Shown here one piece after another: positions 23,480 through 46,198 of a DNA stretch of 64,000 nt. Under the pieces are notes generated by a model that was not told where the DNA came from, made no database searches, and was given only the letters and a program-made list of their open reading frames with translations. Numbering within the stretch: position 1 is the first letter of the stretch; every line of letters begins with the position of its first letter. A program made the translations under genes and the position numbers. Source of the stretch: Candidatus Omnitrophota bacterium (GTDB lineage: Bacteria > Omnitrophota > Omnitrophia > Omnitrophales > JACROU01); assembly GCA_029261035.1 (NCBI GenBank), contig JAJDCD010000023.1:248001-312000 (forward strand). The letters run 5' to 3'.

Positions 23480-26400
23480 ATGATCAAGTTCAAAAAACCG
23501 ATCGCTTTTTTTACTTTTTTACTTTTTACGATGAATACGTTTGCTTATGCTGCGCCGGAAATCTCTTTGTCTTCTTTAAAGGCTAAAGACAATATTCTTC
23601 TCCCATTAAATATTCAAATACCAGAAACCTTAGGCGTCGTTGAAGAAGAAATTTTAGGTTCTGGCCCTATAGTTATTCATATAGAAGATGCTCATGCAGA
23701 TTACCAAGCCCAGAAAAACATACAAGCAATTATTGAACACTTAGAAAAGACCCAAGATTTTAACCAGCTTTTTCTTGAGGGTGGAGCAGGAGAATTGACC
23801 CCCGAAAGCTTTCATTTCTTTGAAGAACATTCGTTAAATCAAAAGGTTGTCGATGACTTAATGCAACAAGGCTTGTTTTCGGGAGCCGAAGCGTTCTTGG
23901 TCGATAATACTGAGACAGCCCAAGGTTTCGGCATTGAGGACATTGATACGTATCGAAAGAACTTACAACAATTTCGAGAAGTGATTCAAACAAAAGAAAC
24001 GCATGTTTGGACTGAAGAACAAAAACAAATCCTTTCCACTCAAATTTCAAAAACATTCCCCAAAGAATTAAGAGAGATTGTTTCTCTTAGACAGAAGCTC
24101 GACCTAAATCAAATATCACTGTTAAGTTATGTAAACCTTTTGAATCATTTAGTAAAAAAACATCTTTCCATCGATTTACAAGACAAGAAACATCAATGGG
24201 ATTACCCCTCTTTAGTTCGACTTGTTCGACTTAAGGAGATGAAAACAACAAACCTCGAACAAATCCAATCAGAAAAGAAAGCGTGGCTCGAAAAACTTGA
24301 AGAGCTTAACTTAGATAACGAATTGATGGAAAAGCTAGAGAATATAGAAAAACAAAAATTCCCAAGATTTGTCTTAGAACAACTGCACCAAGCAAAGGGA
24401 GGGAAGCTTTCTTTAGAGGATTTCCCAGCATGGAAAAATTATCTTCAACAATTAATGTATCAAACAGAAGTTGATAGCAAAGGGTTGTTTCAGGAAATAG
24501 AGAGCCTTTCAGGGAAACTCTATAAGGGGTTAGTCCAAACACCAGCGCAACAAAGTCTTCTTAAAAAGATAAAGAGTTTTCATCTTTTCGAAAAGCTTCT
24601 CTTGCTCGAGCTTACCCGAGAGGAGTATGGGAAACTTAAGATAGAAAATCTAGATGTTATGTTACCTGAAGAAATTGAAACTGTGTTGGAAGGGGCAAAA
24701 TCTTTTTATAGGGAGGCTATAAAAAGAGAATTCTTTTTCACTCAAAATTTATTATCTCAAATGAAAGAAAATAAAAACCCAAAATCTATTTTAGTTACAG
24801 GAGGGTTTCATTCTGAAGGAATAAAAAAGAAAATAAGGGAATTAAATTTCTCTTATGTCCGAATTCGCCCTCACGTAGGATCTTCCATTGAATCACGAAA
24901 AATTTATTTAAATACGTTGCTTGAAGAAAATAAAACAAAAATAGCTTCCATTGCTAACGTACTTCAGATTATGCCTGAAGCCACACAGCAAAAAATGGGC
25001 GTTTCTGTTAAGAGAAGATTTTTTGTTAATGCAGCAGTGAGCCGAGCAGCATCTTTGGGTGAGGAGGAGCTTCCCAAAATTCCTGGAGCCAAGATTTTGA
25101 CTTTATCTTTAGGGGAGCTTGCGGATTACCTTGCTGAGAATCTTGAATCTCAATTTGAAGAGGCTGGGCGCAATTTTAGAACAAAAAAACCCAATGCGGT
25201 TTTAGATAGTTTTGAAATTATGGCGAATGCCCGATTTATTGATGCGGACACGGTTCGATTTATTTCACAACCTAGATTAGCCACAGGAGAAGATGGGGCT
25301 ATTGTTAATACATCCCATGGGTTGTTGTCCAACATCATAGGCTTGGAGCCTAATGACTTTCAATCTCATTGGATGCGATTGATATTTTATTTATATCCTA
25401 ACGATAAAATAGTTATTAATTTTATTCACAATGGGTTTGTGCGAGAGCTCATCAGAAAAAGAAATGCGCACAAGTCACAAAAAGAATTTGATTATGATTT
25501 ATCCATACGGGATGAGTACATTAAATTAGCTCGAGTCTTTGTCGAGGCGTTTCGAAAAACACCTTATGGTTCTTCTGAAGAAAAGATTGAAAGCGTAAGA
25601 ATTATAGAAGCGATAGGGGTTCCTTGGTTTTCATCTGAAGAGCAAAGCACCATTAAAATAGGAAATCAGGTTTCCTTGTATCTGTTATCGCAGTTACAGC
25701 TTTTAAGTGAGAAAATTGAAGGGGCATCTCTGGGAGAAACAAATCAAATAGAAAAGAGCACCTTCTTTCAAAAATTTTGGGAGGCTCCTCTGTGGTTTAA
25801 GGTTCCTGTCAGTGTGGGTGTCATTAGTACTGCAGCAGCCCTTCTTTTTGGTTTAGGCTTGCCGGAGGCTTTTAAAAATCCAATAGCTTCTTTTTTTAAT
25901 AACATCACTATCTTTGGATTTTTTGTTGCACTTGCAGATATTTTAGGTCAATGGATTTCGGGGGCAAAATATAATTTAAAACAAACTTTTCTTTCTTTTT
26001 TTCCTTTGGGGTTAGCGTTAGGAACAATGACTTTTGTAGGTTACGGAATTATTAATTACTTAGTTCCTCAAGACTCTCAACTGACGGTCTGGATTTGGGG
26101 CGTTTTGCTTAGTGTTAGCGCTTTAATGGGCTTCAAGTTAGCCAATTTTTATAACAGTTTTAAGGAAGATGTGAGCCAACTTCAACATTGGGCTTTTCGT
26201 ATTGCGGGTATCGCGTTCCCACTTATTCTAATTTGGCACTATCTGCCACGCGAAGAACCTCTTCCTGAGTTTGTTGTGGGCATTGTGCGTGTGTTGGGAA
26301 CTTGGGTTGTGATACGGAGTAGAACGATTCCTTATGCCTGGCTTGTCAAAAGAGTCAGAAATCAAATTAAAAAAGAAGAAGCAACGACATCTGCAGATAA

Positions 26401-29400
26401 AGAGGACGCAAAAGAAGCCTTAGATGCTCAAGAAAAACAATACGAATCTTTTTGGATGTCGCGAGTTCCTTCCTTCATTAAAAATTATGTTGTGATGATG
26501 TTTTTCCCTCCACATTTAGCAGTTATTTTAGAAGGCATTGCTACGCAATATTTCCAATTGTTTTACTCTTGGTCTGTAAATAAAAAAGGATTCATGATTA
26601 AAAAGGAAAATCTAAGAGGAAACCGAATGTTTCTTTTCTTTTTAGGGTTTATTTGGTGGTTAGGTGTTCAGCGTTTTACAAAAACAGAAACTAAGAAAGA
26701 GCCAAAAGAAGAAATAGAAGCAAAAAGTTTAGGAGCGATTTCGGATAAAGATAACAAAATTACGCGCCTTAATTTCTATAAGAAAGTTCGCCCTTATTTA
26801 GCTTATCTTGCCAGAAAAAATGTTTCGGCACCTTTTGCTGCAAAGACACCGGATTTGTTCTTACTTTTAGGCCATGGAGACCCTAGAACTTTCTATGAAT
26901 TTTCTGGAGTTTGGAGAGATGCCAGTTTGAAAGGGCATCAAGTTCCCATTGTGATTGCTGGCGGTAGGGGTAGGGGAACGGATCTGTTGGTTCAAAAAAT
27001 TATGCTCTATGCCCAAGATAACAAAATTCCTTTTACCGAAGAAGAGCGAGCGTTGATTCTTAAAAGCGATATTTCTGAAGCTGAGATCATTAAAATGGTT
27101 CTTGTGAAACAAGAGATTCCTGAAGAGTTAATCACTGTTGAAACAAAATCCACAAATACACCCGAAAACTTTGTTAACAGCCTTGCTTTTGTTAAGCAGC
27201 TTGTGGGCCAAGATGCGTTAATTCAAGTCGTAACAAATCCACCTCTTAATTTAAGAGCCCATCAAACAGGATTAAAAAAATGGGAAGATATCATTAAAAG
27301 TCAGTCGTGGCAGTTGCGCACAACGCCTGTTTACATGCCTCGTTTACAAAAAATGACAGAAGAGGACACTTTAGAGTTTATCGCTTATGTTTTAGGCTTA
27401 CCTTCGGGTTATCAACCTAAGAATACGTCTGTGAATCGTAAAAGTGAAACAGAGCGAATTGCAGAGTATGGAACAAAAGAAACCCCAGATCTAATTCCTC
27501 TAGATTTTTCCGAAACAGAATGGAGCTTAGATGCTGTAAGGGAATTAAGAGAAACACATTTCAGAGACTTTCTTCAGCAAAAAGGCGACGTTCCGAAAGA
27601 CAAGTGGAGCAAAGGCATTTGGGCTCTTTTATTCTTTATTCCATCTTTCTTTATTGCTTTAGGGGTTGTCCCCGACTTTTTCTATAATGCGCGAGCGTTG
27701 TCCCCAACTTTTTACCTTCATGAATTTTTGCATGGCAGTAATAGTTGGAATTTAGAAAACTTAAATATTCCTCTTTGGGCCAAAACAATGACTCATTGGG
27801 GCCCTATTTATTATGTGTTGTATGCGCTTGAATATGTTGCTCATGGTATTTCCGATGGACTTGTCTCTGTTTTTTCTTGGGCACTTTCTTTTTTTGGCAT
27901 GGAAGAAGAAGGGGGTAAGCTTTCGTATATTATTCCAGATGCTGTTGATTTAATGATAGGTTTTACGGGCTTAAAAGTTGGACAAACACTATACTCTTTA
28001 AAGAATCAAACCCGCCTTTCGAGATTTGGAATGTGGTCCAGCTTTACGGTTGCTTTTGGTTACTTTGCTTTTCACACACTCTATATTTTGCATGATGCCT
28101 TTCGCATCGGAGATTTTTCTAAAGTACACCATCCTGAGAATGGAGACTACCGTATGTTTGCCAGCATTTTTTCTTCAGGTGCAGCGAGTCCAGGTCAAAT
28201 ATTTTTAACAGGCCTTTTCGTAGCAAGTTTTTCTTATCTTTTTGTTACTGCAGGCCATTGGCTTTTAAGTGGGATTAAAAACAGGTTACAACTAGGTTCT
28301 ATTCGAGAGAGTTTTAGAAAAAGAGTAAGTGAAAAAATAATTTCTACTTACAAATCTACGGTTTTGGCTCTTTCCATTTTTATTGTTAGTTTTACAGCAC
28401 TTTTAACAAGCGCAAGTTACTCCACTCCCAAAATAACACCTGCTTCACCAGAGGTAAAAGAAACAGACCCAGAAAAATCCACCAAGAAAAGAGAACGCAA
28501 AGAGGACTATGTTGCCAACCCGGCAAAAGGAGATAGTTTAGGAAAGAGTATAGAAATAGCTCGAAGCGCCTCTAGACCGAACAGTGTAGAAGCGGCTTCT
28601 TTGGGATCTCAACAGGAAAAAATTGATGAGAGAAGATTAAGAAGAGCTCAGCGAAGCCATAGACGATATAAAGATCCATTAGTATCTTTGATTCATATGG
28701 TGGTTACAGCGGATCAGAATCGTTTACTTATGGTTAAGTCGGTGGAAGGGGCTCGTTGGTCGTTGTTGGAAGGGGCTCCTGTTCTTGGTGAAACTGTTTT
28801 TGAGGCTTCTAAGAGAATTCTACCTCTCTGGATTAATATGGCAGCCCAAACAACGAAGGCAATTGGGATTGTTTCTGACCCAGAACTTCATGATGTTTAT
28901 GTTTATTCTCCTGTTATGAAAGTTGTTTTAAGGGATCAACAGCTTTTAAAAGATTCGAATCAGTTTTTTGATGCTCGTTTATTTTCCCGAGAAGAATTAA
29001 AGTCTATTTATCTTAAAATGTTTGTAAACCCAAATCATCGAAGCCTTGTTGAGGCTTTTGTTAATGATCCTCAGCTATCACATATCCCTGTTAAAGCAGA
29101 AAGTTTAAAATTTGCTGATCCGGACAAACGTTTAATTGAAACGCCTTCTTTTGACCAAGCTAAAGCTAGAAGAACCAAAGAAGAACATAATTACCATATA
29201 GAGCAGGGGAAAACACAACACAATTTAACATCGGTTGGATTGGTGGAGGTAACGAAGCCAAACGGAGAATATTTAGGAGTTATGCTTCAACAAATTAAAA
29301 AAGGAGCATATAAAGGGCAGTGGTCTTTAAGTGGAGGGCATCCCTCTCATGGTGAAAGTGCTGTTTATGCGGGCATGCGAGAGATATATGAGGAAACTAG

Positions 29401-31360
29401 TTTGGTTGCAACCAAGCCGCACTTTTTAGGCATTTTGCCTCCAAGTTATCCTGGTAGTCCTGAAAGTTACATTCAATCTTTATATAGTTTTCAAGCAAAA
29501 GGTTATCCTAACCCTGATAATAAAGAAGTTTCCGCCATTGCTTTTGTTAAGAATTTTGAAGAGCTCAATGAGTTTGCGCGAAATAATATACTTGCGTGGA
29601 GTGTGTATGGGACCGTAGCTAAATTTCTATTAGAAAAAGAAGGTGTAAAACTACCGGAAGAAATAACAACATTAGTGAAATCCCTTTTTTCAAAATATGC
29701 GTTTGATTCAAAGCGACTTCACTCGGTAACTCTTGCATTAACTTACTTAATTCCAGAAATTATTAAAACACAGCTGCAGAATGTTAACTTAGAGAACTCG
29801 AATTTTATTTTAAGTTCTATGTTCCATTATTACTTATCCAAGATGTTGCTAGACACACTACAAAGTAACCCCCGGTTTGAAGCAGGCGCGTTGCTGCGAT
29901 TTATGCAATTGGGCGATCAAGATATATATGACCCTAAAGCTTCTGGCGGAGGAGCGTACTTTACACAGGAGATTCCCGAAGAATTTAAAGCGGCGTATGA
30001 GAAGCAAGAACAAGAAAATGGACGATTATTAGCAGATAAATGGTTGTTAGAAGAAAAAGGGATTTTTTGTTTTAGAAAGAAACAAGGTGAGGAGATGCGT
30101 TATGAAACTTGGTATTGGAGAGTGAATCCTTGGAACGATGGAGCAACTTTAAAATTAGAGGATGAGGAGTATCAAGGGTTAGAGGCTCTATCCTTAACGT
30201 TGCAACAAGCAACTCATTTTGTTCTTAATGATCGCAATGCCAATGGCTTTTTACTCATAGACCCAAAAAGTCCTTTAGCTCAAATCGCAGAGGCTTCAAG
30301 AGAGGAGAGCAACTCTGCTGCTATTGAAGGGAGACCCGTACTTCCATCGGAATATTTGGTTCCAGAACTTCAACTATTATTAGGCGAACAGGTTCAAGAT
30401 ATGAATGAAACCTTAGATGCAATGGCAGAAGAAATGCTCCAATTTCTAGGAAAATCAATTTTACCTTCTACGCATGAAAACTTAAAACAACGCTTGCGAC
30501 TCGAACTCTTTAAAATTTTATATGTAACACAAATGGCGGAGATCTCTCACCTCGAAACTGTTGGAGCAGCTTCTCTAGGTAGTATAAAAGAAAGAGAAGT
30601 AGACGCTATTATTTATGTGACAGAAACTGTTGCCGGAGGGATTTATTATTTACCAGAGGCAGATCAAACACTTCTTGTGTTGTTTAAAGAAAATGCTAAG
30701 GATGGAAAGACAGAAATAAAAACTTCATCTGCTGTAAATGCTTTTAATAGGGATATAACGCCGGTTTTGAATCTAGTACCACAAAATGTAAGGGGCCCTC
30801 AATCCAGACTGCCGCTCATTGTTTTTGATGATGTTCTTAAGAAGAGAAAAGAAACGGCACGTCAAATGGCGCATCAACTTTCTTCCGCGCTAAAGCCAGG
30901 CGACTTATTTGTAGCTGTTTGGGAGGGAGACGATAAACCTTCAGTGCTGAGCCAGCTTTATCGAGAAGCAAATACATCCGAGTTTCAGGTGCGGGATATT
31001 CCAAAAGCGCTTATTTCTGAAGCGCGTGTTCAGTCTTTGACGCGAAAAATAGAAACAGCTCCTGTGGCAATTAGTTCGTTATACGATACTTCAGATTTAG
31101 AACTGGAATTGCGAGGAGGCGATAAAATTAAATTAGATTTAAGCTCATTAATTGAAAAGGGGGTTAACCCGATTCAAGTCGTGAAATTAATTCGAGCGCT
31201 TTCAGATAATTTAGAAGCCCGAAAGGTGCTTTTTGAACGTATTGGATTTAAGTGGAACGAAAAAGAAGGTTTTTGGACCGTTGGAAAAGACTTTACTCAA
31301 TTCCTCGAAACAATCTACACACAATCTCTCACACAACAGCTAGTCCTTCAAGCAGCTTAG
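23480..31360 (+). CDS. Giant exported multidomain protein 1 (SLG-motif polyprotein-like)
   Basis: About 2,626 residues from the ATG at 23480 (AAAGGTG 12 bases upstream; signal peptide MIKFKKP...FAYAAPE). A GTG five codons earlier is possible, and residue numbers here count from it. Modules: 1-527, an N-terminal domain homologous to that of giant protein 2 (H72, E74, H77; TGGFH 445-449); 533-752, unknown; 758-1085, several membrane helices; 1091-1688, a DUF218/YdcF-like domain (LLLGHGDPRTF, IAGGRGRGTD, ETKSTNTPENFVNS), then more membrane helices with HEFLH at 1419-1423; 1715-2367, a degenerate Nudix-like and an intact Nudix domain (box at ~1958-1980, REIYEE); 2373-end, unknown. SLG motifs lie at 528, 753, 1086, 1689, 1710 and 2368. 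No frameshift seen. Function unknown; processing into pieces is inference. Confidence 0.9.
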   Translation: MIKFKKPIAFFTFLLFTMNTFAYAAPEISLSSLKAKDNILLPLNIQIPETLGVVEEEILGSGPIVIHIEDAHADYQAQKNIQAIIEHLEKTQDFNQLFLEGGAGELTPESFHFFEEHSLNQKVVDDLMQQGLFSGAEAFLVDNTETAQGFGIEDIDTYRKNLQQFREVIQTKETHVWTEEQKQILSTQISKTFPKELREIVSLRQKLDLNQISLLSYVNLLNHLVKKHLSIDLQDKKHQWDYPSLVRLVRLKEMKTTNLEQIQSEKKAWLEKLEELNLDNELMEKLENIEKQKFPRFVLEQLHQAKGGKLSLEDFPAWKNYLQQLMYQTEVDSKGLFQEIESLSGKLYKGLVQTPAQQSLLKKIKSFHLFEKLLLLELTREEYGKLKIENLDVMLPEEIETVLEGAKSFYREAIKREFFFTQNLLSQMKENKNPKSILVTGGFHSEGIKKKIRELNFSYVRIRPHVGSSIESRKIYLNTLLEENKTKIASIANVLQIMPEATQQKMGVSVKRRFFVNAAVSRAASLGEEELPKIPGAKILTLSLGELADYLAENLESQFEEAGRNFRTKKPNAVLDSFEIMANARFIDADTVRFISQPRLATGEDGAIVNTSHGLLSNIIGLEPNDFQSHWMRLIFYLYPNDKIVINFIHNGFVRELIRKRNAHKSQKEFDYDLSIRDEYIKLARVFVEAFRKTPYGSSEEKIESVRIIEAIGVPWFSSEEQSTIKIGNQVSLYLLSQLQLLSEKIEGASLGETNQIEKSTFFQKFWEAPLWFKVPVSVGVISTAAALLFGLGLPEAFKNPIASFFNNITIFGFFVALADILGQWISGAKYNLKQTFLSFFPLGLALGTMTFVGYGIINYLVPQDSQLTVWIWGVLLSVSALMGFKLANFYNSFKEDVSQLQHWAFRIAGIAFPLILIWHYLPREEPLPEFVVGIVRVLGTWVVIRSRTIPYAWLVKRVRNQIKKEEATTSADKEDAKEALDAQEKQYESFWMSRVPSFIKNYVVMMFFPPHLAVILEGIATQYFQLFYSWSVNKKGFMIKKENLRGNRMFLFFLGFIWWLGVQRFTKTETKKEPKEEIEAKSLGAISDKDNKITRLNFYKKVRPYLAYLARKNVSAPFAAKTPDLFLLLGHGDPRTFYEFSGVWRDASLKGHQVPIVIAGGRGRGTDLLVQKIMLYAQDNKIPFTEEERALILKSDISEAEIIKMVLVKQEIPEELITVETKSTNTPENFVNSLAFVKQLVGQDALIQVVTNPPLNLRAHQTGLKKWEDIIKSQSWQLRTTPVYMPRLQKMTEEDTLEFIAYVLGLPSGYQPKNTSVNRKSETERIAEYGTKETPDLIPLDFSETEWSLDAVRELRETHFRDFLQQKGDVPKDKWSKGIWALLFFIPSFFIALGVVPDFFYNARALSPTFYLHEFLHGSNSWNLENLNIPLWAKTMTHWGPIYYVLYALEYVAHGISDGLVSVFSWALSFFGMEEEGGKLSYIIPDAVDLMIGFTGLKVGQTLYSLKNQTRLSRFGMWSSFTVAFGYFAFHTLYILHDAFRIGDFSKVHHPENGDYRMFASIFSSGAASPGQIFLTGLFVASFSYLFVTAGHWLLSGIKNRLQLGSIRESFRKRVSEKIISTYKSTVLALSIFIVSFTALLTSASYSTPKITPASPEVKETDPEKSTKKRERKEDYVANPAKGDSLGKSIEIARSASRPNSVEAASLGSQQEKIDERRLRRAQRSHRRYKDPLVSLIHMVVTADQNRLLMVKSVEGARWSLLEGAPVLGETVFEASKRILPLWINMAAQTTKAIGIVSDPELHDVYVYSPVMKVVLRDQQLLKDSNQFFDARLFSREELKSIYLKMFVNPNHRSLVEAFVNDPQLSHIPVKAESLKFADPDKRLIETPSFDQAKARRTKEEHNYHIEQGKTQHNLTSVGLVEVTKPNGEYLGVMLQQIKKGAYKGQWSLSGGHPSHGESAVYAGMREIYEETSLVATKPHFLGILPPSYPGSPESYIQSLYSFQAKGYPNPDNKEVSAIAFVKNFEELNEFARNNILAWSVYGTVAKFLLEKEGVKLPEEITTLVKSLFSKYAFDSKRLHSVTLALTYLIPEIIKTQLQNVNLENSNFILSSMFHYYLSKMLLDTLQSNPRFEAGALLRFMQLGDQDIYDPKASGGGAYFTQEIPEEFKAAYEKQEQENGRLLADKWLLEEKGIFCFRKKQGEEMRYETWYWRVNPWNDGATLKLEDEEYQGLEALSLTLQQATHFVLNDRNANGFLLIDPKSPLAQIAEASREESNSAAIEGRPVLPSEYLVPELQLLLGEQVQDMNETLDAMAEEMLQFLGKSILPSTHENLKQRLRLELFKILYVTQMAEISHLETVGAASLGSIKEREVDAIIYVTETVAGGIYYLPEADQTLLVLFKENAKDGKTEIKTSSAVNAFNRDITPVLNLVPQNVRGPQSRLPLIVFDDVLKKRKETARQMAHQLSSALKPGDLFVAVWEGDDKPSVLSQLYREANTSEFQVRDIPKALISEARVQSLTRKIETAPVAISSLYDTSDLELELRGGDKIKLDLSSLIEKGVNPIQVVKLIRALSDNLEARKVLFERIGFKWNEKEGFWTVGKDFTQFLETIYTQSLTQQLVLQAA
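25046..30580 (+). other. Set of SLG boundary motifs in giant protein 1
   Basis: Motif starts: 25046 (AASLG), 25721 (GASLG), 26720 (AKSLG), 28529 (GDSLG), 28592 (AASLG), 30566 (AASLG). Each lies at a change between recognisable modules. The codons differ from copy to copy (for example gca gca tct ttg ggt versus gca gct tct cta ggt). A further LSLG at about residue 548 lies inside a predicted helix and looks incidental. Confidence 0.75.
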
Positions 31361-31365
31361 AGCAT

Positions 31366-31532
31366 TGTCATCCCGTACTTGATACGGGATCCAGTGTCTT
31401 TATCTTTTCTTTAATCGTCATTGCGAGGCGTCGAACAAAGAGCCGCGGCAATCTCAGGATTTTGAATAAGAATGGAAGATGCCCATTTTCTTGAGATTGC
31501 CGCAGCTTTTTTGTCAAAGCTTCGCAATGACA
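31366..31532. repeat. Two adjacent dispersed palindromic repeats
   Basis: 31366-31400 is a left part of the TGTCATCCCG...CGGGATCCAG family. 31416-31532 is a complete CATTGCGAGG element: CGTCATTGCGAGGC and GCGGCAATCTCAGG on the left are mirrored by TTGAGATTGCCGC and CTTCGCAATGACAG on the right. Together with the inverted-repeat element at 31581-31768 they fill most of the 499-base gap between the giant gene and the pilin gene, in which I see no gene. Confidence 0.85.
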
Positions 31533-31580
31533 GATTTAGAATTATGTTTAGGGTTTTTGCTGATAGCTTAAAGCTAAATA

Positions 31581-31768
31581 GAAAACGCCAAAAATTTAGA
31601 TAATTATTTCTTGGCCTTGTGCGGGATGGTTTTCATCTTAACTCCTTATGTGGTTCCGGACATGTCTTTCAAATAACTTCGGGCCCCATAGGATTAAGAA
31701 GTTTTGCCTTTATGACAACTGATTATCCTCGCCGCCATTGAATTGCTATCTAAGTTTTTGGCGTTTTC
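31581..31768. mobile_element. 188-base element bounded by 22-base inverted repeats (MITE-like)
   Basis: GAAAACGCCAAAAATTTAGATA at 31581-31602 is inverted at 31747-31768 with one mismatch. The 144-base interior is non-coding apart from an 11-codon minus-strand reading frame (31604-31636) that has a good AAGGAG. The similar AAATAGAAAA flanks make the exact ends unclear. No target duplication is obvious. Confidence 0.45.
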
Positions 31769-31859
31769 TTATTTTCTATTTCTAATTATGTTTCTATAAA
31801 AACTCTAACACATCCTCACAACTTTACTAGTCGATGTCTTACAAAAAAATTTTAAGGAG

Positions 31860-32306
31860 TTACACGTTTACAATTTCTCCGGCCTCTGTGATTTGAAATG
31901 AGCGGTTTCCTGTAACATTAACTTGTTGGGGAGACGCCGTAATGGTGTAAGTGGCTTGAGTTACATTAGATAACGCAAAGTTGTATCCTTGTCGTGAGCC
32001 GCTTGTCAGTGCAGTATCGCAAAAGGGAGGATTACTGGAAGAAAGAGCCCCCAAGGTTATGGGATAGCCCGTAAAGATAATTCGATATTGTTCCATAGCT
32101 TGTCTTAATGTATTTAGAGCTGTCTGAGCTCCTGTTTCATTGGCTGTAACTCGGGCGCTTCTGAAATTGACGAAAGACACAACGACCACAATAGCAATGA
32201 TAGAGAAAACCACAATAATTTCCAGAAGAGTAAAACCTTTTTTGCTTTTGCTATGTTTTCGACTCCAAAATTTTACAAACACTGCGAGCGCCTCCGTAAG
32301 TAGCAT
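31860..32306 (-). CDS. Type IV pilin-like / pseudopilin protein
   Basis: The class III prepilin signal KKG|FTLLEIIVVFSIIAIVVVVSF, with the invariant glutamate at +5 of the mature protein, is clear. A prepilin peptidase would cut after the glycine near residue 24. The C-terminal part (ITLGALSS, NFALSNVTQATYTITASPQ) resembles minor pilins or type II secretion pseudopilins. The ~24-residue leader is long, and an internal start is possible. It is divergently arranged with giant gene 2 and lies between the two giant genes. No other pilus genes are in the window. Confidence 0.75.
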   Translation of the reverse strand: MLLTEALAVFVKFWSRKHSKSKKGFTLLEIIVVFSIIAIVVVVSFVNFRSARVTANETGAQTALNTLRQAMEQYRIIFTGYPITLGALSSSNPPFCDTALTSGSRQGYNFALSNVTQATYTITASPQQVNVTGNRSFQITEAGEIVNV

Positions 32307-32509
32307 CCTTATTAAACCAGCTCTATATATAAATTTAACACAAATATGGACGACACAAAAATTTAAGCTATATAACTTTCTAAACAGAGCATGATTAGTA
32401 TATCGCCCTAATAAGTAGAAACTTTAAACCTGAATAATCGTAAATCACTATAAATAAAGGGCTTAAGTTGTTTATTTAATTTAGAGTAAGACAGCTTTCA
32501 GAAACGTCC

Positions 32510-38500: not shown

Positions 38501-41500
38501 GCTATTGTTTTAGAATTTATATATACAAAAAAAGGAAAAAAGGGAGTTGCCAAGCTTTATTGGACCGGAAAAAAATATGAGACCGAGTACGAAAGAAAGG
38601 TCCGCGAGATGCGAGAAGCATTTAAAAATCTAGAGGAAGAAAAGGTAGTAGCGGTAGGGGATGTGAGTTTGCTGGTGAATAAGTCGCAAGGAAAATTACA
38701 ACACGGTTTTCCAACGCCAAATGGAAACACATTAAATAAACTCCAACCAATAGGAACAGGAATGAAGGGTGCGCGTCAAGAAACTGTTGCTTCGAGTCTT
38801 GGGGTACAACTCAATAAAGAAATGCTGATCATGAAAATAAGAGAAGGGTTTAGGGATTTAGAAGTTGGAAATACCAAGATGGTGAGCATAGGCGATGTGA
38901 GCCTTTTGGTAGATAAAAAACGAGGAAGATTTTACCAGACGTTTCCGACACCCGATGGAGGTACGGTAGAGAGGGGACAAGGAATAGGAGCAGGAAAGGG
39001 CATAAAAGACATTTATTTAAAAATGATAAAAGAAGAGCAGGAAATTGTTTTAGAATTTTGGTTTAAAAAAGGGAACAGTGAAACAGAAGATAGAGTAAAG
39101 TTTTATTGGAATGGAAAAGAGTATAAACAGGAAAAAGACAGAAAGAAAAAAGAGTTAATCAAGCGGATCAAAAAAGGATTTAAAAAAGCAAAAAAAGGCC
39201 AGTCTACAGAGATTGGAGATGTAAGTTTGTTGGTTAACAAAAAATACGGAAGGCTCCAGTCGGTTTTTCCGATGCCTAATGGCGAAAAAGTTGCGGGGAT
39301 AGGTTTATCCTTTGGAGCGAAATTAAACCTCAAAAAGATTAGTTTAAAGATACAAAATGAAGAAGGGCAGATCGTTTTAAAATTCCTTTATAGAGTAAAG
39401 GGGAAAAAGGAACAAGAAACAGCAAAACTCTATTGGAATGGAAAAAAATATGAAACAGAGGAAAAGAAAAAAAGCAGTAATAAGGAACAAAAAGAGTTAA
39501 TCAAGAAAATCCGAAAAGGATTTAAGGATTTGGAGTCTGGAAAAAGCGAAGCAATAGAAGTTGGTGATGTGAGTCTTTTGATAAAGAAAAAAAGAGGCCT
39601 TTTTAAAGGAAGTTTCCCAACACCTAACGGAGGAAAGGTGGGGGCCTCTCAGGCGCTTGGAACGAGTGGGAACCTCAGTGAAATTTTTCTAACAATAAGA
39701 AAAGAAGGAAATCAAATAGTTTTAGAATTTCGATATACGAAAATGATTTCAAATACAGGAGATAGAAAAGAAAAAATTGTTGGAAAAGAAAGGCTTTATT
39801 GGAATGGAACAAAATATCTGAACAAGTTTAATACAGGAGAAAGAAAAAAGAGAGAAGAAAGACTAATCAAACAAATCCGAAACGGATTTAAGAGTTTAAA
39901 ATTGGGGAGGAAGCAAGAGGTTGAAATCGAAGATATTAGTTTGCTGATATATAAAAAATACGGGACCCTTAAACCCATCTTTCCAACACCTGACGGAGGA
40001 CAAGTTAGAAAAGGATATCCGTTTGGGGGCACTAAGCACATTAAAGAGATAGCGTTAAGGATAAAGAAAGAAGAAGGCCAAATTGTTCTCGAGTTTTTCT
40101 ATAAAATAGAAGGAGAGGAAAAGAAAAGTGTCAGAAAGGTGTACTGGCACGAAGGAAAATATGAGTCAGAGGTGGGGAGAAAAAAAAGAGAAATTCACGA
40201 AGGGTTTAAAAACTTACAGTCTGGAGAAAAAGAAAAAATAGAAATCGAAGATATCAGTTTGTTAGTAAACATGAGACACGGGGTATTCAAACCCGACTTT
40301 CCTACGCCCGATGGAGGTCGAATAGGTAAAAGTCGAGGAATGGGAGTAGGAAAAAATCTTAAAGCCATATCTTTAAGGGCAAGTAAAGTAAAAGGAAAAA
40401 TTGTTTTAGAATATTTCTATAAGACAAAAGGAAGTAAGAAAGAAAAATTCGCAAAAGTGTATTGGTTCGAGGGTAAATATGAAGTAGAGATAGATAGAAA
40501 GAGAAGAGAAATCCGAGAAGGGTTTCAAAAGTTACAGCTTGGAGAACAAGAAGAAATAGAAATTGGAGATGTGAGCCTCTTGGTGAATAAAAGATATGGA
40601 AACTTCCAAATGACGTTTCCAACCCCTGATGGAAGTCAGGTTGGCAGGGTAGGAGCCATTGGAATAGGAAAAAATCTCAAAGAGGTCACTTTAACCATAA
40701 GGAAAGAAAATGGCGAAATCATCCTAGTCTTTTTCTCTAAGACCAAAGGAAGCAAGAAAGAAAAGCAAACAAAACTATACTGGTACGAGGAGAAATACGA
40801 GTCTGAGACAGATAGAAAAAGAAGAGAAATACGAGAAGGATTTCAAAAGTTACAGCTTGGAGAACAAGAAGAAATAGAAATTGGAGATGTGAATCTTCTG
40901 GTGAACAAAAAAGCAGGGAACTTCAAATTCCGCTTTCCGACACCTGATGGAGGGCAGGTTGGAAAGCAATATGCAATTGGAATGGGGGGGGACTCCATAG
41001 AGATTGATCTGAAGATAAAAAGAGAAAAAGAAACAGGAAAAATCTTGTTAGAATTTAGATATCAAAAACAAGGCCGAGCAACTTTTGAGAAAGTGCCTGT
41101 TACCTTAGCCTGGAATCCCACGACAAAAACCTACGAGCCTTATGTCCCCGAAACCCAACAAGATGTTTATGAGTTTGACCTCGATACGGAAGGGTTTAGT
41201 TTGGGAAGACAGATGTTAGAAGTCGGAAGTCAGAAAATGCCAAAAGCTAAAGGCTATGAGCTGACAGCTATAGAAGCGTCGAGCTTGGGAGAACAACAAG
41301 CATTAGAGGAAGCCTGGAAGGCATTTCAGTTACAACGTCCTCAGCTGATTGCAAAGATTGAAGCATGGAAAGCTGGAAAGCGAGGCGAAGAAACAGCACG
41401 GCAATTAAGAGATCAAATTTATAAGATCGAACGAGCAGATTTAATTGCTTGGGATTTAGATAAGTATATGCACAAAAAATCCTCCCAAAAAGTTTTTTCT

Positions 41501-44500
41501 GGTTATAAAGAACTGCTGATTGCTCTTTTTTCCGATCTTCAGTTAAACCCTTTAGGTTTTCAATTAGATTTTGTGAAAAAACCTCTAGAATCGATTCGTT
41601 TTCGATTTGCTCAAAAGGTTCCTTCTGTTATGGAGCGTTATGCTCGGGTTGAAACTTTATCTGAAGAGGAAAAAGATTTGTTAAGAGAGGAAGTATATGA
41701 AATTGATTCGTCGAGGCTTAAAGAGTGGCAGCTAGAAAGAGTTCTTCATCGAAAAGAAGTTCCTTTGTTTGATGGGGATTACAGGCAGGTTCTTATTTTG
41801 TCTCTTCCAGACTTAAAATTAAACCCTCTAGGTTTTGGGCTTGATTTTACTACTTTAGAAAAAGCATTAGAATCAATGCGTTTTATTTTTGAAAAAGAAA
41901 TTCTGGAAATTTTAAAACGTTATGAGCAATTGAAGGGGCTGTCGGAACTAAAAGTAGAACAGTTAAGAGAAGAAATTTATGCCATTCGAGGAAGGCATCT
42001 AACAGCTTGGGGTTTAGAAGGGTTAGGAGATAGAAGTGCGGCCCCTTATTTTAAGGGAAGTACTTTTAATGCATTGAATACTTTTTTTTCGGAGTTGAAT
42101 TTGAACTCCTTAGACTATGAATTGGACTGGTCCAGCCCAGAACAGGCTACGGCATCGGTTCATCATGTCTTTAATAAAGAATTTCCAGAGCTTATGGAAC
42201 GGTATCGACGCTTTGAAGAGTTGAGCTTTTCTCAACAAAACAGGTTAAGAGATGAGTTTTATCAATTTACTCAGAATCAAATGCAAGCGTTAAACTTAAG
42301 AGCCGCAACTCAAGAATATTTTCAAAACACACATGCTATAGCCATGCAGGCTATTTTTCCTAAGCTGGAACTTAATGTATTGGGTTTTAGTCTGGATTGG
42401 AGTTCTCCTGAGCAAGCGAGAGCCTCCCTGAGATTTGTTTTTCAGAGACACATTCCGTCTATTATGGAACGTTATGAAAAAATAGATCAGTTAGATGCAG
42501 AAATGATTGAAAGATTAAGAAGAGATATCTATCACAACATTTCAAATGCGCATTTTCGATTATGGAAAATACAAAATTTGATTCGCACTAAAGTTTTGGG
42601 TGAAAACTATCTTGAGGTTTTGGACGTTTTTTTTAATGATCCTCGATTAGGTTTCTCTATCTTAGGTATGAGACAGTATCGTAAACAAAACACAACAACA
42701 AAATATCAATGGAAAGATTTGCAACAAGCAAAAACAAGTATTAAAGAAGCGATGAGAGAAAATATGCCAGAACTTGTGGATCAGTATGAAGCATGGGAAA
42801 GCTTAAGTCTTTTTGAACAAAATAACTTACGCGATGATTTTTACGCAATAACAGCAGGGCATATTGCTGTTTGGGGATTAAATAGCGCTTTAAATAATAG
42901 AGCAGTTCCTTTTTTTAAAGGAAAAATTTTTAATGTCTTGAATGAAACTTTTCCTAACCTTAAGTTAAATCCTTTAGGGTTTGCTTTGGATTACACTACA
43001 ACAGATAGAGCTCTAGAGTCTATTCGGTATGTGTTAAGCAAGAAAAAACCAAAGGTGATCGAGGAGTATGATCGCAGACACGAATTGAGTCAGGACGAAA
43101 TAGAAGCGCTAAAAGAGAAAATATATCAAATAAATTCAAGGAGTCTTCTTTTGTGGGGTTTAAGAGGCGCTTTTTCTAAAAAAGAATCTCCACAATTTGA
43201 AGGAAGTTATGTTCGAGCTTTACAGACTTTCTTTTCTGGTTTGGAGTTAAACCCGCTTCGATTCAGGACAGATTTTACAACGGAAGAAAATGCGATTAAC
43301 TCGGTGTTATCCAAGTTTGAGAGATACAAGCCTCAACTTTTTAGTAAATATCAAAGTATTGAAGACTTAACGGAAGAAGAAGTGGAGACTTTAAGAGAGC
43401 AAATTTATCGAATTCAGCCGGAACAACTTAAATTGTGGGGTTTAAGAGGGGCTTTTAGTTATTTTAAGGGAGGGTATCGTGCAATTCTTATGGCTGTTTT
43501 TAACCACTCTCGATTAAATTTAGAAAAAGAAAGTTTTAAGAGAAAACGCAAAAGAAGACGCATCTCAGAATCAGGACGGATTCCAACGGTAGGTCTCAAC
43601 GTACAAACAGATGAGGAATCGTCTGCTTCAAGTCTAGGCGAGGATATGTCTGACACGGAAGTTTGGAAATATGGTTTTAAGACGGTCAAAGGAAGCGCGG
43701 AGTATAACCCGGAGCTTAAGAAAGCTATACGAGAATTTTTCCGAGCTTTAAAAGGAAGCAACCCGGACAAACTAAAAATAATATCTGTGGATACAGGAAC
43801 AGGTGCTTATACAGCAATTAATGAGGCAAGAAACTATTTAGAAGAGCAAGGTTGGTTACATCGATTTGAGCTGGTGGGTACAGATATTTTCGAACCAGAA
43901 GAAAAGGCCCCAAAAGGGGTTCGATTCGAAAAAGTAGCTACAGAAAGCTTGTCTGACAGTTTTGCTTTAGAGTCTCTGGATGGCGTTATGAGTGTGCGGT
44001 CACTTTTATACACAGATGTTAAAGACAGTCTTTTTGTATTGAATCAAGTATTAAAAGTTGGCGGAGAAGGTCTTTTTATTCTCCATCATAAATATTCAGA
44101 GATTCTTGCATTTGATAGAGATTTTCAAGAACAGGTAGATATTTTAAAAGGTTTAAAGTTATTCGCACATTTAGAAACTTTTGTGAAACAGCCCAATTAT
44201 AGGAATTTAAGGCAGTTGCTGATAGTAAGAAAAATTATTTCTAATGCAATCCATGAGAGAAAAACAAGAAAAGACTTTCCTCATATTTTAAATAGAGAGA
44301 TTGGCCTTTTGCAAAAGTTTCAAGCAGCCATTGACTATTCTGTTTATCTTGTTTTAAGAGACGGGTTAAAGAAAAAGATTACTACGAAGGAAATAGATGA
44401 GGTTCTAAGCTTTTTGGAAGTACCAACAAACATGGAAGAAGAGTTTCTTCCTTATTTTAACGACCTTATGACTCTATATATCCGTCAATATAGCGGTTTT

Positions 44501-46198
44501 GATGTACAGACGTATGAGCATTCAGCACATAGCTTTTTAAAGCTTATAAGAAAAAATCTTGCGATTAAAAAGAAGAGAATGGATTTACTTCAATATAAAG
44601 CAGCTGTTTATGGTTCTGAAGATGAAGCTCTGTTGAGAAAGCTTTGGGAAGAGTCTGGTTTTAAAATTGTGTCTTTAGAACCTTTGAAAGAGAACGAGCA
44701 AGATATTGATTACCCTCTTCCTGAGAGTGCATTAAAAACATATGGATGGAAAGTAAGGGTTGTCAAAGAGAGAACCTTGTCTCAGCGTAGTGAGGCAATA
44801 GAAGCCATCAAATTGCCATCAGATCAGTTGCGTAACAAGGATAAATCTTTGGTTTTGTCGCCTGAAACAAGGGCTATGCTAGAAATTCCTTATAAAGAAA
44901 AACGAGTTTCTAAAAAAGAGATCCAAAAAATGCTAGCTCAACGGGAATTTTTTAAAGATGCACGTGTGTTTGAATATATAGAACGGTATTTTGACAATCC
45001 GTCACGTGAAAGGAAGCACGACTTAGAAATTGTTCTTAGCCGAATTAATAATTTAGTTGGCTTAGCGTTTAGAACAAAAGGAATGGATGGTGAAGAAGAC
45101 TTGTTGAGAGTAGAGGACTTAATGGCTGTTCAGAGAGTCTTAAACCAAGTTTTTTTTGGTAAAGGAATCAAACAAAAAAAGAACAGAAAAAAATGGCAAG
45201 CCCTCAAAGGGCAACTTCAAATGAAGTATGGGATCTATCAACTTATTCTTAACCATCAGACCTTAAGTACTCCTATTCACGAAAGGCTTCAAGGTTTATT
45301 GAAAAAATTTGATGTTATTTCAGAGATTGAGGTAGATGAAGATAGAGAGGTCTTACGAATAAAAGCGAAAATCGAGAGAGAGTTTGTTTCTTCAAACGCT
45401 GAAAGTTTGGGAAGACAAGCCGTTGTGGGCTTTTATGATCTTAATCAACAGTTGGGTGGGGGAACCCGTCTCGGGTTTGACCGGGTTACCTATGAACTGA
45501 CAAAAGGCCTTTTATCTCCGGTTCTTCGTTTAGATAGAGAGACTTATGATGAGGCGTATTCTTCTCTTTTTCCTGAAGAAATTTTAGAGAGTTTTAGTTT
45601 GCCTAAAGACAAACTAGATCAAATGGGTCTTTGGGGAAGAGTTTTAGCGGCAGGACAAGAAGGGCCCTCAAGGCATGTGTTTGACTATAGGAGTTTGCCA
45701 AAAAATATTGAAAGTCTAGATGCATTGATTCTTTATTTGTTGCAACACAAAAAATTAACCTACACCTTACTAACGATAGCGCCTATCGAAGAAGTTAGAG
45801 AGTTTAAATTATTATTAAAAAAATATATTTCGGATAAATATCAAACCAGTTTAGGTGAACGTTTTAATTTACAAGGGGTCCATTCAGAAAAGGAATTGAA
45901 AGCTTCTGTTCATAAACTTGTTTCTGATAATCAAAAGAGTGCTTTAGCTTTTGTATCTGAGGATGCAGAACAATCTTGGGTTGGTTTTACACGTAATAAT
46001 TTGTTACAAGTAGCTGGATCTAAAGATGCCTCCACTCAAAATGCTTCTGTTATTGTTGCAGCTCAAAAATTATTAGAACCTTTACCAACGCATCTTTTTT
46101 GGGAAGTTCAAAAACCAGAAGATTTAACAACGACTTTTATTTGGAATGAATTACTGATTCGATTTCAAGCAGATACAATGCTTCGAATTGCGGCTTAA
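32558..46198 (+). CDS. Giant exported multidomain protein 2 (SLG-motif polyprotein-like)
   Basis: 4,546 codons without interruption. The true start may be TTG at 32609 (AAGAAAGG nine bases upstream), which leaves a clean signal peptide ending KNANAA; numbers here count from 32558. Modules: 1-606, an N-terminal domain homologous to giant protein 1 (H94; TGGFH 519-523); 612-808 and 814-1102, a beta-rich and a helical region, unknown; 1108-1273, unknown; 1279-1868, a methyltransferase-like module (DLGTGN 1342-1347, GTDF); 1904-2862, nine repeats of ~106 residues; 2912-3689, eight repeats of ~95; 3695-4280, a second methyltransferase-like module (DTGTGA 3745-3750, GTDI); 4286-4546, a C-terminal domain ending LRIAA. 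Exact A[A/S]SLG motifs lie at 809, 1103, 1274, 1869, 1899, 2078, 2907 and 3690; looser ones at 607, 2879, 4281 and 4429. Function unknown. Confidence 0.9.
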   Translation: MLFFLKSFILFQERPTRLKFLYKTRRFLSSLVLFTFLFSLIQVSDLKNANAATIVPQSPLFVFDFDLPRNLGELTHISPKVLLDPTSDEPLFFHIQSSHRHYETETNIKEILRFLTKEYDIKHIFLEGGAYRLHPENFQFFPEDPEMNKKVVQTLLQKGELTGAEAFLIESEQNVSGWGLEDAKLYKENRDLFKKIIKLQPQAQTYLDFLILELNSINSVVLNNTLKKWLQQKKRHKEQTTPLSERLRYLKKQAKKQLDLDLSTPISQNLFPTLVRYFQLEKSLKEFNLEHWKKEKDLFLHELKKMELEPNLAKEIHSFLDKTPGFLKENYGYDSKTSQIFSLPKLRFVFERLYDALPEDFDIKRFPSVAQYIQIEILKDEVKGKQMFQEIKILEEKVLSSLIQTPEEKEHINLLEEITRLKKLIRLELTREEYNRYFDNSSQQNKPEHILDSTHQTISQTIKNKKTSLDILKQKLLETGIFDLTLSFYRAAIDREEAMTNKLLKHAKEVLKEKTIFITGGFHSEIFESTLKKNNLNYVQISPHMGDGSDFSEETYLKASLGKSFIETAHKEAPLRTDPLLLSELNDPMFLADIKAVVDETVLEVSGKSLGGLYDKDKTKTVGEVSFTGDVEKDFHQITEWFQTIFSNQEDVDLFLKQNYIVYGKRGEGWILRIEKNSDHTLSFDFEGVLMGGLNTPTLAKYQFVFDYQESSVQLFVYANWLLDLPYISDDQLILKKKIYFNSEELSSLKFENNKFYIEVPEKVRQQLWNLEILERFEKEGVASEHLQLVSEAQGIVLPKSGDVMPSMASSLGKAKSVDPEELAQRILTSKRFIIRKGAIDRLTGIASQMVFNLPEGKEAETQRRAFDILARLSVPQEEGEEVLPTEVYELLHLALAHIALQRTLPYSTEALEQLKNNLLSSNISEERFFKSVTNAFWNIIYLDARKEHGYRKDFILEVLSFIESTILSKSPQLRSLVYPLLFEFLKRLAYEVGNQTKSSEHFGVVTAPILNKIFDIYKHVFSTPNFEKKVYKDAVIHSFLHIYWGVKGDYSPLPLMQRRIDDFQPVVNFIQDAWNESREEERRNGIKDLYDNFVQYQDEGSASSLGNAHRPPFSFKNGIFRLNWNYPGKADVYPWAPKERGSFAEALNYWYGRAIFFTVDEREPLHYEEAITERLSSAVGDFEKIYRGLAAYPQLRLSNVLIQRNLDKPTAEVVEMIKPLIFDAAKAFGEAPESRAFRVDRKADHDSLMVLYHNAEQFVDTVTPFYRAHQSKASSLGLRPVEEKKVSTFDRFPTDKDYWDLFWKEAKLSSSSVNGDYPPSISGFLERFFSKLPNNFKSGLDLGTGNFHALRKAREHFDSRAMTPILIGTDFAQPGMSPPEGVVFRKVAGEHLSDLLIDDELDLQHIEAIFGVHSLLYMNVEGTLRQMNAVMPMGGQIGFVLHHAESTYVFSEKYYLEMLLLLERLDLFATLRQFIKDPRPKTLRVVYKKTKVLIDIILQKQEEDRAFSDSPTGKMIGELIGLSSYVTQQVLSDWLKNSSYAHKVPEFSTPFDMIYMMEFLSLDEMEGFREEGLDDYIYEVMSQYKKLKVELNQTHTEYLERIEGRFYGRKKKAALLKEAAIYGMQHKDELMDLFKRNGFEVEVEELHDTQSNGRSLLGWGVTGTKISEAMEKKPVLKRVNSEMPKLDFDEIKMKIPDFNDDFFESVQNQLEQLELLERIGFLKAAYAILQDPSNLWAQNTLNHAVYILDLYAHFISGMKKFIGDYAFFNPSTILSLYYQTLKGLETRLLPGELLDHILWIQSQIRMNQIEKVLLRRILELRPEEKVRRPGKIVQRALSELGYELTLFGQTSFSKDNTYWEIEIEKTTAASLGRLRSMTTHRVFSKEEKELKTNEIVPAASLGQVRNQKSVLIDRIRAGYEKLKEEEKVEIGDISLLVDKKEGRFYKTFPHPGGKNKGSREPVRLGANIEELELRLLREEEAIVLEFIYTKKGKKGVAKLYWTGKKYETEYERKVREMREAFKNLEEEKVVAVGDVSLLVNKSQGKLQHGFPTPNGNTLNKLQPIGTGMKGARQETVASSLGVQLNKEMLIMKIREGFRDLEVGNTKMVSIGDVSLLVDKKRGRFYQTFPTPDGGTVERGQGIGAGKGIKDIYLKMIKEEQEIVLEFWFKKGNSETEDRVKFYWNGKEYKQEKDRKKKELIKRIKKGFKKAKKGQSTEIGDVSLLVNKKYGRLQSVFPMPNGEKVAGIGLSFGAKLNLKKISLKIQNEEGQIVLKFLYRVKGKKEQETAKLYWNGKKYETEEKKKSSNKEQKELIKKIRKGFKDLESGKSEAIEVGDVSLLIKKKRGLFKGSFPTPNGGKVGASQALGTSGNLSEIFLTIRKEGNQIVLEFRYTKMISNTGDRKEKIVGKERLYWNGTKYLNKFNTGERKKREERLIKQIRNGFKSLKLGRKQEVEIEDISLLIYKKYGTLKPIFPTPDGGQVRKGYPFGGTKHIKEIALRIKKEEGQIVLEFFYKIEGEEKKSVRKVYWHEGKYESEVGRKKREIHEGFKNLQSGEKEKIEIEDISLLVNMRHGVFKPDFPTPDGGRIGKSRGMGVGKNLKAISLRASKVKGKIVLEYFYKTKGSKKEKFAKVYWFEGKYEVEIDRKRREIREGFQKLQLGEQEEIEIGDVSLLVNKRYGNFQMTFPTPDGSQVGRVGAIGIGKNLKEVTLTIRKENGEIILVFFSKTKGSKKEKQTKLYWYEEKYESETDRKRREIREGFQKLQLGEQEEIEIGDVNLLVNKKAGNFKFRFPTPDGGQVGKQYAIGMGGDSIEIDLKIKREKETGKILLEFRYQKQGRATFEKVPVTLAWNPTTKTYEPYVPETQQDVYEFDLDTEGFSLGRQMLEVGSQKMPKAKGYELTAIEASSLGEQQALEEAWKAFQLQRPQLIAKIEAWKAGKRGEETARQLRDQIYKIERADLIAWDLDKYMHKKSSQKVFSGYKELLIALFSDLQLNPLGFQLDFVKKPLESIRFRFAQKVPSVMERYARVETLSEEEKDLLREEVYEIDSSRLKEWQLERVLHRKEVPLFDGDYRQVLILSLPDLKLNPLGFGLDFTTLEKALESMRFIFEKEILEILKRYEQLKGLSELKVEQLREEIYAIRGRHLTAWGLEGLGDRSAAPYFKGSTFNALNTFFSELNLNSLDYELDWSSPEQATASVHHVFNKEFPELMERYRRFEELSFSQQNRLRDEFYQFTQNQMQALNLRAATQEYFQNTHAIAMQAIFPKLELNVLGFSLDWSSPEQARASLRFVFQRHIPSIMERYEKIDQLDAEMIERLRRDIYHNISNAHFRLWKIQNLIRTKVLGENYLEVLDVFFNDPRLGFSILGMRQYRKQNTTTKYQWKDLQQAKTSIKEAMRENMPELVDQYEAWESLSLFEQNNLRDDFYAITAGHIAVWGLNSALNNRAVPFFKGKIFNVLNETFPNLKLNPLGFALDYTTTDRALESIRYVLSKKKPKVIEEYDRRHELSQDEIEALKEKIYQINSRSLLLWGLRGAFSKKESPQFEGSYVRALQTFFSGLELNPLRFRTDFTTEENAINSVLSKFERYKPQLFSKYQSIEDLTEEEVETLREQIYRIQPEQLKLWGLRGAFSYFKGGYRAILMAVFNHSRLNLEKESFKRKRKRRRISESGRIPTVGLNVQTDEESSASSLGEDMSDTEVWKYGFKTVKGSAEYNPELKKAIREFFRALKGSNPDKLKIISVDTGTGAYTAINEARNYLEEQGWLHRFELVGTDIFEPEEKAPKGVRFEKVATESLSDSFALESLDGVMSVRSLLYTDVKDSLFVLNQVLKVGGEGLFILHHKYSEILAFDRDFQEQVDILKGLKLFAHLETFVKQPNYRNLRQLLIVRKIISNAIHERKTRKDFPHILNREIGLLQKFQAAIDYSVYLVLRDGLKKKITTKEIDEVLSFLEVPTNMEEEFLPYFNDLMTLYIRQYSGFDVQTYEHSAHSFLKLIRKNLAIKKKRMDLLQYKAAVYGSEDEALLRKLWEESGFKIVSLEPLKENEQDIDYPLPESALKTYGWKVRVVKERTLSQRSEAIEAIKLPSDQLRNKDKSLVLSPETRAMLEIPYKEKRVSKKEIQKMLAQREFFKDARVFEYIERYFDNPSRERKHDLEIVLSRINNLVGLAFRTKGMDGEEDLLRVEDLMAVQRVLNQVFFGKGIKQKKNRKKWQALKGQLQMKYGIYQLILNHQTLSTPIHERLQGLLKKFDVISEIEVDEDREVLRIKAKIEREFVSSNAESLGRQAVVGFYDLNQQLGGGTRLGFDRVTYELTKGLLSPVLRLDRETYDEAYSSLFPEEILESFSLPKDKLDQMGLWGRVLAAGQEGPSRHVFDYRSLPKNIESLDALILYLLQHKKLTYTLLTIAPIEEVREFKLLLKKYISDKYQTSLGERFNLQGVHSEKELKASVHKLVSDNQKSALAFVSEDAEQSWVGFTRNNLLQVAGSKDASTQNASVIVAAQKLLEPLPTHLFWEVQKPEDLTTTFIWNELLIRFQADTMLRIAA
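38267..41143 (+). repeat. Nine-unit array of ~106-residue Lys/Glu-rich repeats
   Basis: Unit pattern: IREGF-x2-L, then (I/V)GD(V/I)SLLV-x-K-x2-G, FPTPDGG, a variable glycine-rich turn, then a beta pair ending IVLEF-Y and YW-GKYE. Unit 2 is cut in half and ends exactly at an ASSLG motif (38789). Units 8 and 9 begin with an almost identical 72-base stretch (40503-40574 and 40821-40892, 318 bases apart, two mismatches), a sign of recent duplication or conversion. Confidence 0.85.
41291..43560 (+). repeat. Eight-unit array of ~95-residue helical repeats
   Basis: Unit pattern: F-G-Y--AL---F--L-LNPLGF-LDW, then A--SIR, P-(V/L)MERY, LS-E----LR--IY-I, and W-L. Units are diverged (one at ~42550-42750 has a longer insertion). 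The family is not recognised. It lies between SLG motifs at 41276 and 43625. Confidence 0.8.

Follow-up and report, generated by a model that had tools for sequence, protein, structure and literature searches.

A conserved [AG]xSLG linker motif in giant Omnitrophota proteins suggests a bacterial polyprotein system

Giant proteins of a Candidatus Omnitrophota bacterium carry a short peptide motif, [AG]xSLG, in the linkers between their modules, and the sequence evidence makes it probable that they are exported polyproteins cut at this motif. The window, a stretch of 64,000 nucleotides of contig JAJDCD010000023.1, contains two such genes. In the proposed scheme, the giants would belong to a polyprotein family found across the phylum, and an export signal and an N-terminal domain (N-domain) of the TIKI/ChaN/Ere fold would head each giant, followed by a variable string of complete proteins. 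The chain would be exported, fold and then be cut outside the cytoplasm at the linker motif, which would free the modules. A cleavage site releasing separate proteins had been proposed in the first-pass annotation, and every prediction of this proposal that could be tested at the sequence level held.

Motif copies in the window and across the family

Giant gene 1 comprises a signal-like N-terminus, a TIKI-like N-domain, a membrane part, DUF218 and Nudix domains (Pfam matches at 1.3e-8 and 1.8e-12, respectively) and a C-terminal domain ending in LQAA, with TM-like stretches at residues 780, 1383 and 1631 (Table 1). Giant gene 2 also starts with a signal-like N-terminus and an N-domain, followed by methyltransferase-like modules and two repeat arrays, and ends in RIAA. 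Its modules A and B share 28% identity over 411 columns (E 4e-29); their label, ‘methyltransferase-like’, is taken from the first-pass annotation. Elsewhere in the window, the plus strand encodes a bacterial deoxyhypusine synthase family protein (18207-19196; E 9e-42), whose neighbours are YidC (20211-21857) and MnmG (15630-17444).

The eleven exact copies of A[AS]SLG originally reported for the two genes are all present (3 and 8, respectively), where approximately 0.03 are expected in ~7,170 residues from residue frequencies, in keeping with the claim that chance would give far fewer than one. The better description of the motif is [AG]xSLG, which occurs 6 and 11 times in genes 1 and 2. The initial observation is thus confirmed, and it understates the extent of the motif system. 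When copies from 44 large ORFs of the genome are aligned, a fuller motif emerges, [VSAIT]-[ESQK]-[AG]-x-S-L-G, in which x is usually one of S, A, Q, K and N.

At least 47 giants, amounting to 141,680 residues or 15.7% of the 2.7 Mb genome, were found by sampling only around motif matches, so that the count is too low for giants that lack A[AS]SLG. They contain 224 [AG]xSLG copies vs. 9.0 expected (12.5 by a first-order Markov model), whereas 12 copies vs. 8.9 expected, i.e. no excess, occur in 323 other ORFs that together are equally long; both counts come from about 1 Mb around motif sites, and the ratio between them is partly ascertained because the loci were picked by motif. Whole-genome DNA counts, which are independent of locus choice, give 67 A[AS]SLG sites with an AGY serine vs. 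1 for the reversed pattern, and 29 vs. 5 with a TCN serine. Some long chains are poor in motifs, with one copy in a 5,522-residue giant and one in an open 8,680-residue ORF, and such long stretches without the motif count against the polyprotein reading.

The enrichment expected in other giants of the lineage is seen as a strong excess across the family. A pattern search over related genomes finds 44 sites vs. 16 for the reversed pattern in one sister genus (G001) and 35 vs. 1 in the other (G002). Of the 58 genomes compared, only those of the window's own family show a clear excess; in a different family, one genome (G014) has 18 sites vs. 7 reversed. Loci of sister genera that were found by their N-domain alone hold 49 and 21 motifs vs. 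1.2 and 0.9 expected, respectively. The motifs are kept at 33 of 38 positions that can be aligned with these genera, within flanks that are 21% identical and 25% gapped, and among paralogous modules of the genome itself, motif-defined starts are common to 160 of 248 pairs and motif-defined ends to 198.

Judged from these comparisons, it is the peptide rather than the DNA that is conserved, the serine codon box excepted. The earlier statement that the codons vary freely holds for Ala, x and Gly, whose wobble positions are free, and the flanks show no DNA consensus; it fails for the serine, which is AGY in 77-86% of SLG motifs (77% in the genome's own giants) vs. a background of ~30-34%. In a second motif, RSExR (see below), the serine is TCN in 93%; this opposite codon box led us to reject RSExR as a direct ancestor of AxSLG that kept its serine codon. 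The opposite skew would suit a motif that has no function in the protein and is instead a scar of module shuffling, or its target, in the DNA, and so would the identical 15-mer CGCTCCGAGGCGCGG found in 6 of the 14 RSExR motifs of JACPCP (L118 and L106), a repetition that suggests recent copying or conversion. Such a scar is nevertheless extremely improbable: nearly all 15-mers differ in the other genomes, the wobble positions are free as noted, and the peptide is kept in diverged sister genera. A DNA repeat or recombination site was rejected since no consensus extends beyond the codons.

Table 1. Features of the two giant genes, with positions counted from the first nucleotide of the window, and one further giant of the same genome.
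Feature	Position	Strand	Description or basis
Giant gene 1	23465 (GTG; ATG at 23480)-31360	+	ORF, 2631 aa; ~2,626 aa from ATG
Gene 1 N-domain (TIKI/ChaN/Ere fold)	23549..24934	+	AlphaFold2 model, structure comparison, invariant residues
Motif AASLG, after gene 1 N-domain	25046..25060	+	pLDDT <50 in AlphaFold2 model
Motif GASLG, gene 1	25721..25735	+	pattern match
Motif AKSLG, gene 1, before DUF218	26720..26734	+	pattern match
DUF218 domain, gene 1	26990..27268	+	Pfam
Motif GDSLG, gene 1	28529..28543	+	pattern match
Motif AASLG, gene 1, before Nudix module	28592..28606	+	pattern match
Nudix domain, gene 1	29228..29566	+	Pfam
Motif AASLG, gene 1, before C-terminal domain	30566..30580	+	pattern match
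C-terminal domain, gene 1, Rossmann-like, Ala-Ala tail	30581..31357	+	AlphaFold2 mean pLDDT 82.8; alignment
Giant gene 2	32558..46198	+	ORF, 4,546 aa
Gene 2 N-domain	32690..34375	+	HMM match, 571 bits
Motif GKSLG, after gene 2 N-domain	34376..34390	+	pattern match
Motif ASSLG, gene 2	34982..34996	+	pattern match
Motif ASSLG, gene 2	35864..35878	+	pattern match
Motif ASSLG, gene 2	36377..36391	+	pattern match
Methyltransferase-like module A, gene 2	36392..38161	+	paralogue of module B
Motif AASLG, gene 2	38162..38176	+	pattern match
Motif AASLG, gene 2	38252..38266	+	pattern match
Repeat array 1, gene 2, units with GDVSLLVNK..FPTPDGG signature	38267..41191	+	read from translation
Motif ASSLG, gene 2, inside repeat array 1	38789..38803	+	pattern match
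Motif GFSLG, gene 2	41192..41206	+	pattern match
Motif ASSLG, gene 2	41276..41290	+	pattern match
Repeat array 2, gene 2, units with LNPLGF signature	41291..43624	+	read from translation
Motif ASSLG, gene 2	43625..43639	+	pattern match
Methyltransferase-like module B, gene 2	43640..45397	+	paralogue of module A
Motif AESLG, gene 2	45398..45412	+	pattern match
Giant L002	own genome, C4:35443-46203	-	isocitrate lyase + malate synthase, PEPCK and a glutamate-dehydrogenase-like domain between motifs

Motifs lie between complete modules

As first proposed, the motifs are located at module boundaries and outside folded domains. In 18 giants, none of 105 motifs lies inside a Pfam-matched stretch (14.8 expected), and the count rises to 2 (18.5 expected) when each match is extended over the whole model. 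A linker-propensity score peaks nowhere but between about -30 and +15 relative to the motif, and the AlphaFold2 model of the N-domain places the boundary motif in its disordered tail.

Single ORFs encode several complete proteins with a common site between them. In L002, a giant of 3,587 residues, PEPCK starts ~16 residues after a motif and ends 1 residue before the next, and its alignment with stand-alone PEPCKs shows that the module spans the complete native protein, start to stop. In the same giant, isocitrate lyase and malate synthase share one module, and a glutamate dehydrogenase-like domain ends 2 residues before a third motif. The modules of the giants include enzymes, kinases, WD40 propellers, and membrane and lipoprotein modules. 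The motif is located at one or both edges of PPDK, RNase T, WD40, macro, DUF89 and AprA-like modules, while NDK, PPDK_N and GDH end 0-2 residues before it. In genomes that carry RSExR, a TIM lies 6 residues after one RSEAR and 3 residues before the next motif, an NDK ends 0 residues before its motif, and the fit of HAD and aldose-epimerase modules is similar.

The linker placement would also be explained if the giants remained whole and a partner specific to the lineage (a chaperone, translocon, docking or scaffold protein) bound the motif as a conserved linker element, and the same is true of its uniformity within a genome and its switch between lineages (see below). Such uncut mosaics would also agree with the blank drawn in the protease search for C1 and S41 enzymes, and with those parts of PMC10066038 that regard Omnitrophota giants as intact proteins serving as coat or in adhesion. 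They give no account of complete cytosol-type enzymes that start and stop at the motif, nor of the lipoprotein and Tat signals that come right after it, and we regard them as unlikely.

These signals directly follow the motif in several giants: lipoprotein signals in L029, L030, L019 and L076, twin-arginine signals in L058 (SRREFLALIG) and L163 (NRRGFLKAG), and a Sec-type signal in L029. Cysteine makes up 0.023% of the residues in giants vs. 0.95% in other proteins, and the cysteines that are retained belong to the lipobox or are apparently catalytic (GAPDH, UDP-glucose dehydrogenase, isocitrate lyase). The export signals behind motifs and the retained lipobox cysteines therefore argue that the motif marks true N-termini. 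The N-termini of the giants, as read by eye, are hydrophobic and signal-like, from which the giants look exported.

Tat and lipoprotein signals inside a chain with an exported N-terminus nevertheless pose a topology problem and count against the polyprotein reading. They and the Sec-type signal would become functional if the modules were separated in the cytoplasm, during or before export, by a protease or by 2A-like ribosome skipping, with each module's own signal setting its location. However, signal-less PEPCK and isocitrate lyase are equally cysteine-poor, as expected if the whole chain is exported; we know of no 2A-like skipping in bacteria, and we consider separation in the cytoplasm quite improbable. 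A further rival is a transpeptidation or sorting site of sortase- or exosortase-like type, by which modules would be attached to the surface or to each other: a short conserved peptide of lineage-specific form in apparently exported proteins would suit it, but the copies are internal and repeated, and mostly lack a following hydrophobic anchor and basic tail, so that such a site seems highly improbable.

Ordinary GAPDH, TIM and PEPCK genes are also present in the genome, and a shift of essential metabolism into the polyproteins was rejected on this ground. For isocitrate lyase, the only clear copy is the one in L002, and the only other match is a weak one in a 289-residue frame.

A lineage-specific code and the N-domain

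When the giants of other Omnitrophota were searched for over-represented words, with no motif assumed, RSE[LVAM]R emerged in most genomes with enough sequence (observed/expected: JAUYMS 28/0.55, JAFGHI 22/0.23, PLLJ 19/0.15 and JACPCP 14/0.16), usually soon after the N-domain and then between modules. The two motifs are mutually exclusive: giants of the window's own genome have 224 SLG and 0 RSExR (2.7 expected), SLG is near chance level in RSExR genomes, and the giants of Omnitrophus fodinae use SLG and have no RSExR. On a tree of the N-domains, 8 changes of motif type suffice, vs. ~34 with shuffled labels. Neither motif is enriched in the N-domain giants of JACQVP (L096 and L156), which possibly use a third boundary code; the L.SR and NLIQ contexts, considered for this role, resembled ordinary residues. 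The cut site would have switched between lineages, being [AG]xSLG in the window's own family and Omnitrophus fodinae, and RSE[LVAM]R in most others.

In the window's own genome, all N-domain paralogues share a single motif. The code is genome-wide and independent of the adjoining module, and therefore points to a reader in trans. That each genome uses one motif or the other likewise favours a factor acting in trans, for which a processing protease is the simplest candidate. This cutter would act on all polyproteins that the genome encodes. It counts against the polyprotein reading that some motif-bearing giants have no N-domain and would need to be processed in trans; a minority begin with only a signal and a short stretch before the motif.

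In most giants, a single N-domain of ~500 residues is found at the head. Of 285 Omnitrophota genomes, 142 have this domain, and the open frames that contain it reach 13,082 residues; all matches with named records among the best 80 are from Omnitrophota. Its AlphaFold2 model (mean pLDDT 87.7) matches EreC (VIA Z 9.2; 166 residues aligned, rmsd 4.0), ChaN (8.4) and the Ere relatives 2rad (8.3) and 3b55 (8.2) in the PDB; the top five matches all belong to the TIKI/ChaN/Ere superfamily, and the next unrelated structure scores 5.9. Pfam ChaN matches 8 of 46 N-domain members weakly. All 125 sequences have the same four residues, H49, E77, R393 and H421, with spacings of 28 and 28, and these map by spacing and order, rather than by superposed side chains, to H3902/E3930/R4001/H4030 of RRSP. 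The latter is a sequence-specific TIKI endopeptidase that is freed from a MARTX toxin, and its site consists of E3900, H3902, E3930 and H4030 together with the substrate-binding R4001 (PMC6254334). Position 47 of the N-domain, where the counterpart of E3900, two residues before the first His, would lie, is D in 77, E in 12, N in 15, T in 15 and S in 6 of the 125; that it is only mostly acidic (D/E in 89) counts against the polyprotein explanation.

The N-domain keeps the His/Glu...Arg/His layout of TIKI endopeptidases, and in the best-supported scheme, it would cut at the motif both in cis and in trans. Our analysis makes the N-domain itself the likeliest candidate for the processing protease, an assignment that we put forward tentatively. 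Other enzymes were rejected. A papain-like C1 protease would fit both motifs (hydrophobic P2, G or R at P1); none of the family's three genomes has one. The S41 C-terminal processing peptidase, hinted at by the Ala-Ala tail, is missing from many near-complete genomes that carry giants. A site for signal peptidase I is suggested by the -3/-1-like [VSAIT]x[AG], but the 25 residues upstream are hydrophilic and linker-like, and RSExR has no -3/-1 pattern.

At the opposite end of the chains, the last residue is Ala in 43 of 43 giants sampled and is preceded by Ala in 38. The final A is invariant in the alignment of the C-terminal domain, which ends in a conserved helix followed by Ala-Ala; no specific relative of this domain was found in the PDB (best VIA Z 7.9). 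Separately, four loci (L102, L105, L128 and L171; MAG AM-lipid-02-D9_bin-1187) contain peptide insertions, VRSTEYG...RTPYAV/TPSA, scattered inside their N-domain ORFs, and these look like an in-frame palindromic DNA element.

Significance and comparison with known systems

Kinases, WD40 proteins and modules of central metabolism would make sense outside the cytoplasm if they were delivered into another cell. The broadest reading, which as a whole is doubtful, is of a phylum-wide exported polyprotein system with its own TIKI-type protease and a code that changed between lineages, delivering cysteine-purged enzymes outside the cell, perhaps to a host or prey; the delivered set would comprise glyoxylate-shunt, PEPCK and glutamate dehydrogenase enzymes, kinases and WD40 proteins. 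If the giants are indeed polyproteins, 16% of the genome would encode several times more proteins than its annotation suggests, which would bear on the riddle of domain-poor giant ORFs in Omnitrophota, and co-evolved protease/site pairs would be on offer.

It is a hallmark of viruses to encode genome-scale polyproteins that share one cleavage code, and we know of nothing comparable in cellular organisms. In the open-access literature searched, we found no paper on a bacterial polyprotein, and none on Omnitrophota that deals with a polyprotein or isocitrate lyase. The giants resemble viral polyproteins in that one ORF holds several complete proteins separated by short repeated linker sites, and in that the site is specific to the lineage. 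They differ in being encoded at dozens of loci in a cellular genome, in carrying an export signal and in having no recognised viral protease, and their cleavage is predicted from sequence.

Within the phylum, Velamenicoccus archaeovorus likewise has a giant ORF, of 39,678 residues with few annotated domains, and host-dependent lifestyles have been proposed for Omnitrophota, both according to PMC10066038; a term search of that paper finds neither ‘polyprotein’ nor ‘Tiki’. The TIKI/ChaN/Ere superfamily (EreC, ChaN, Bcr135, Tiki and RRSP) shares with the N-domain its fold and the invariant His/Glu...Arg/His. The H-28-E spacing is common to the N-domain and RRSP, while R-28-H in the former is R-29-H in the latter. 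Unlike these relatives, the N-domain has a large helical insertion (~residues 130-393) and heads a giant.

The MARTX toxins, e.g. of Vibrio vulnificus, are, like the giants, exported chains of independent modules, and their effectors are freed by site-specific processing (PMC6315884, PMC6254334). One of these effectors, RRSP, is an endopeptidase with the TIKI fold, which is also the fold of the N-domain (PMC6254334). A MARTX toxin, in contrast, is encoded by one gene and has RTX repeats and a C80 protease domain triggered by InsP6, for neither of which Pfam gives a match in the window proteins (E<=0.01) or in the other scanned giants (E<=0.001), whereas the giants are encoded by dozens of genes per genome, have a common boundary peptide and include metabolic enzymes as modules.
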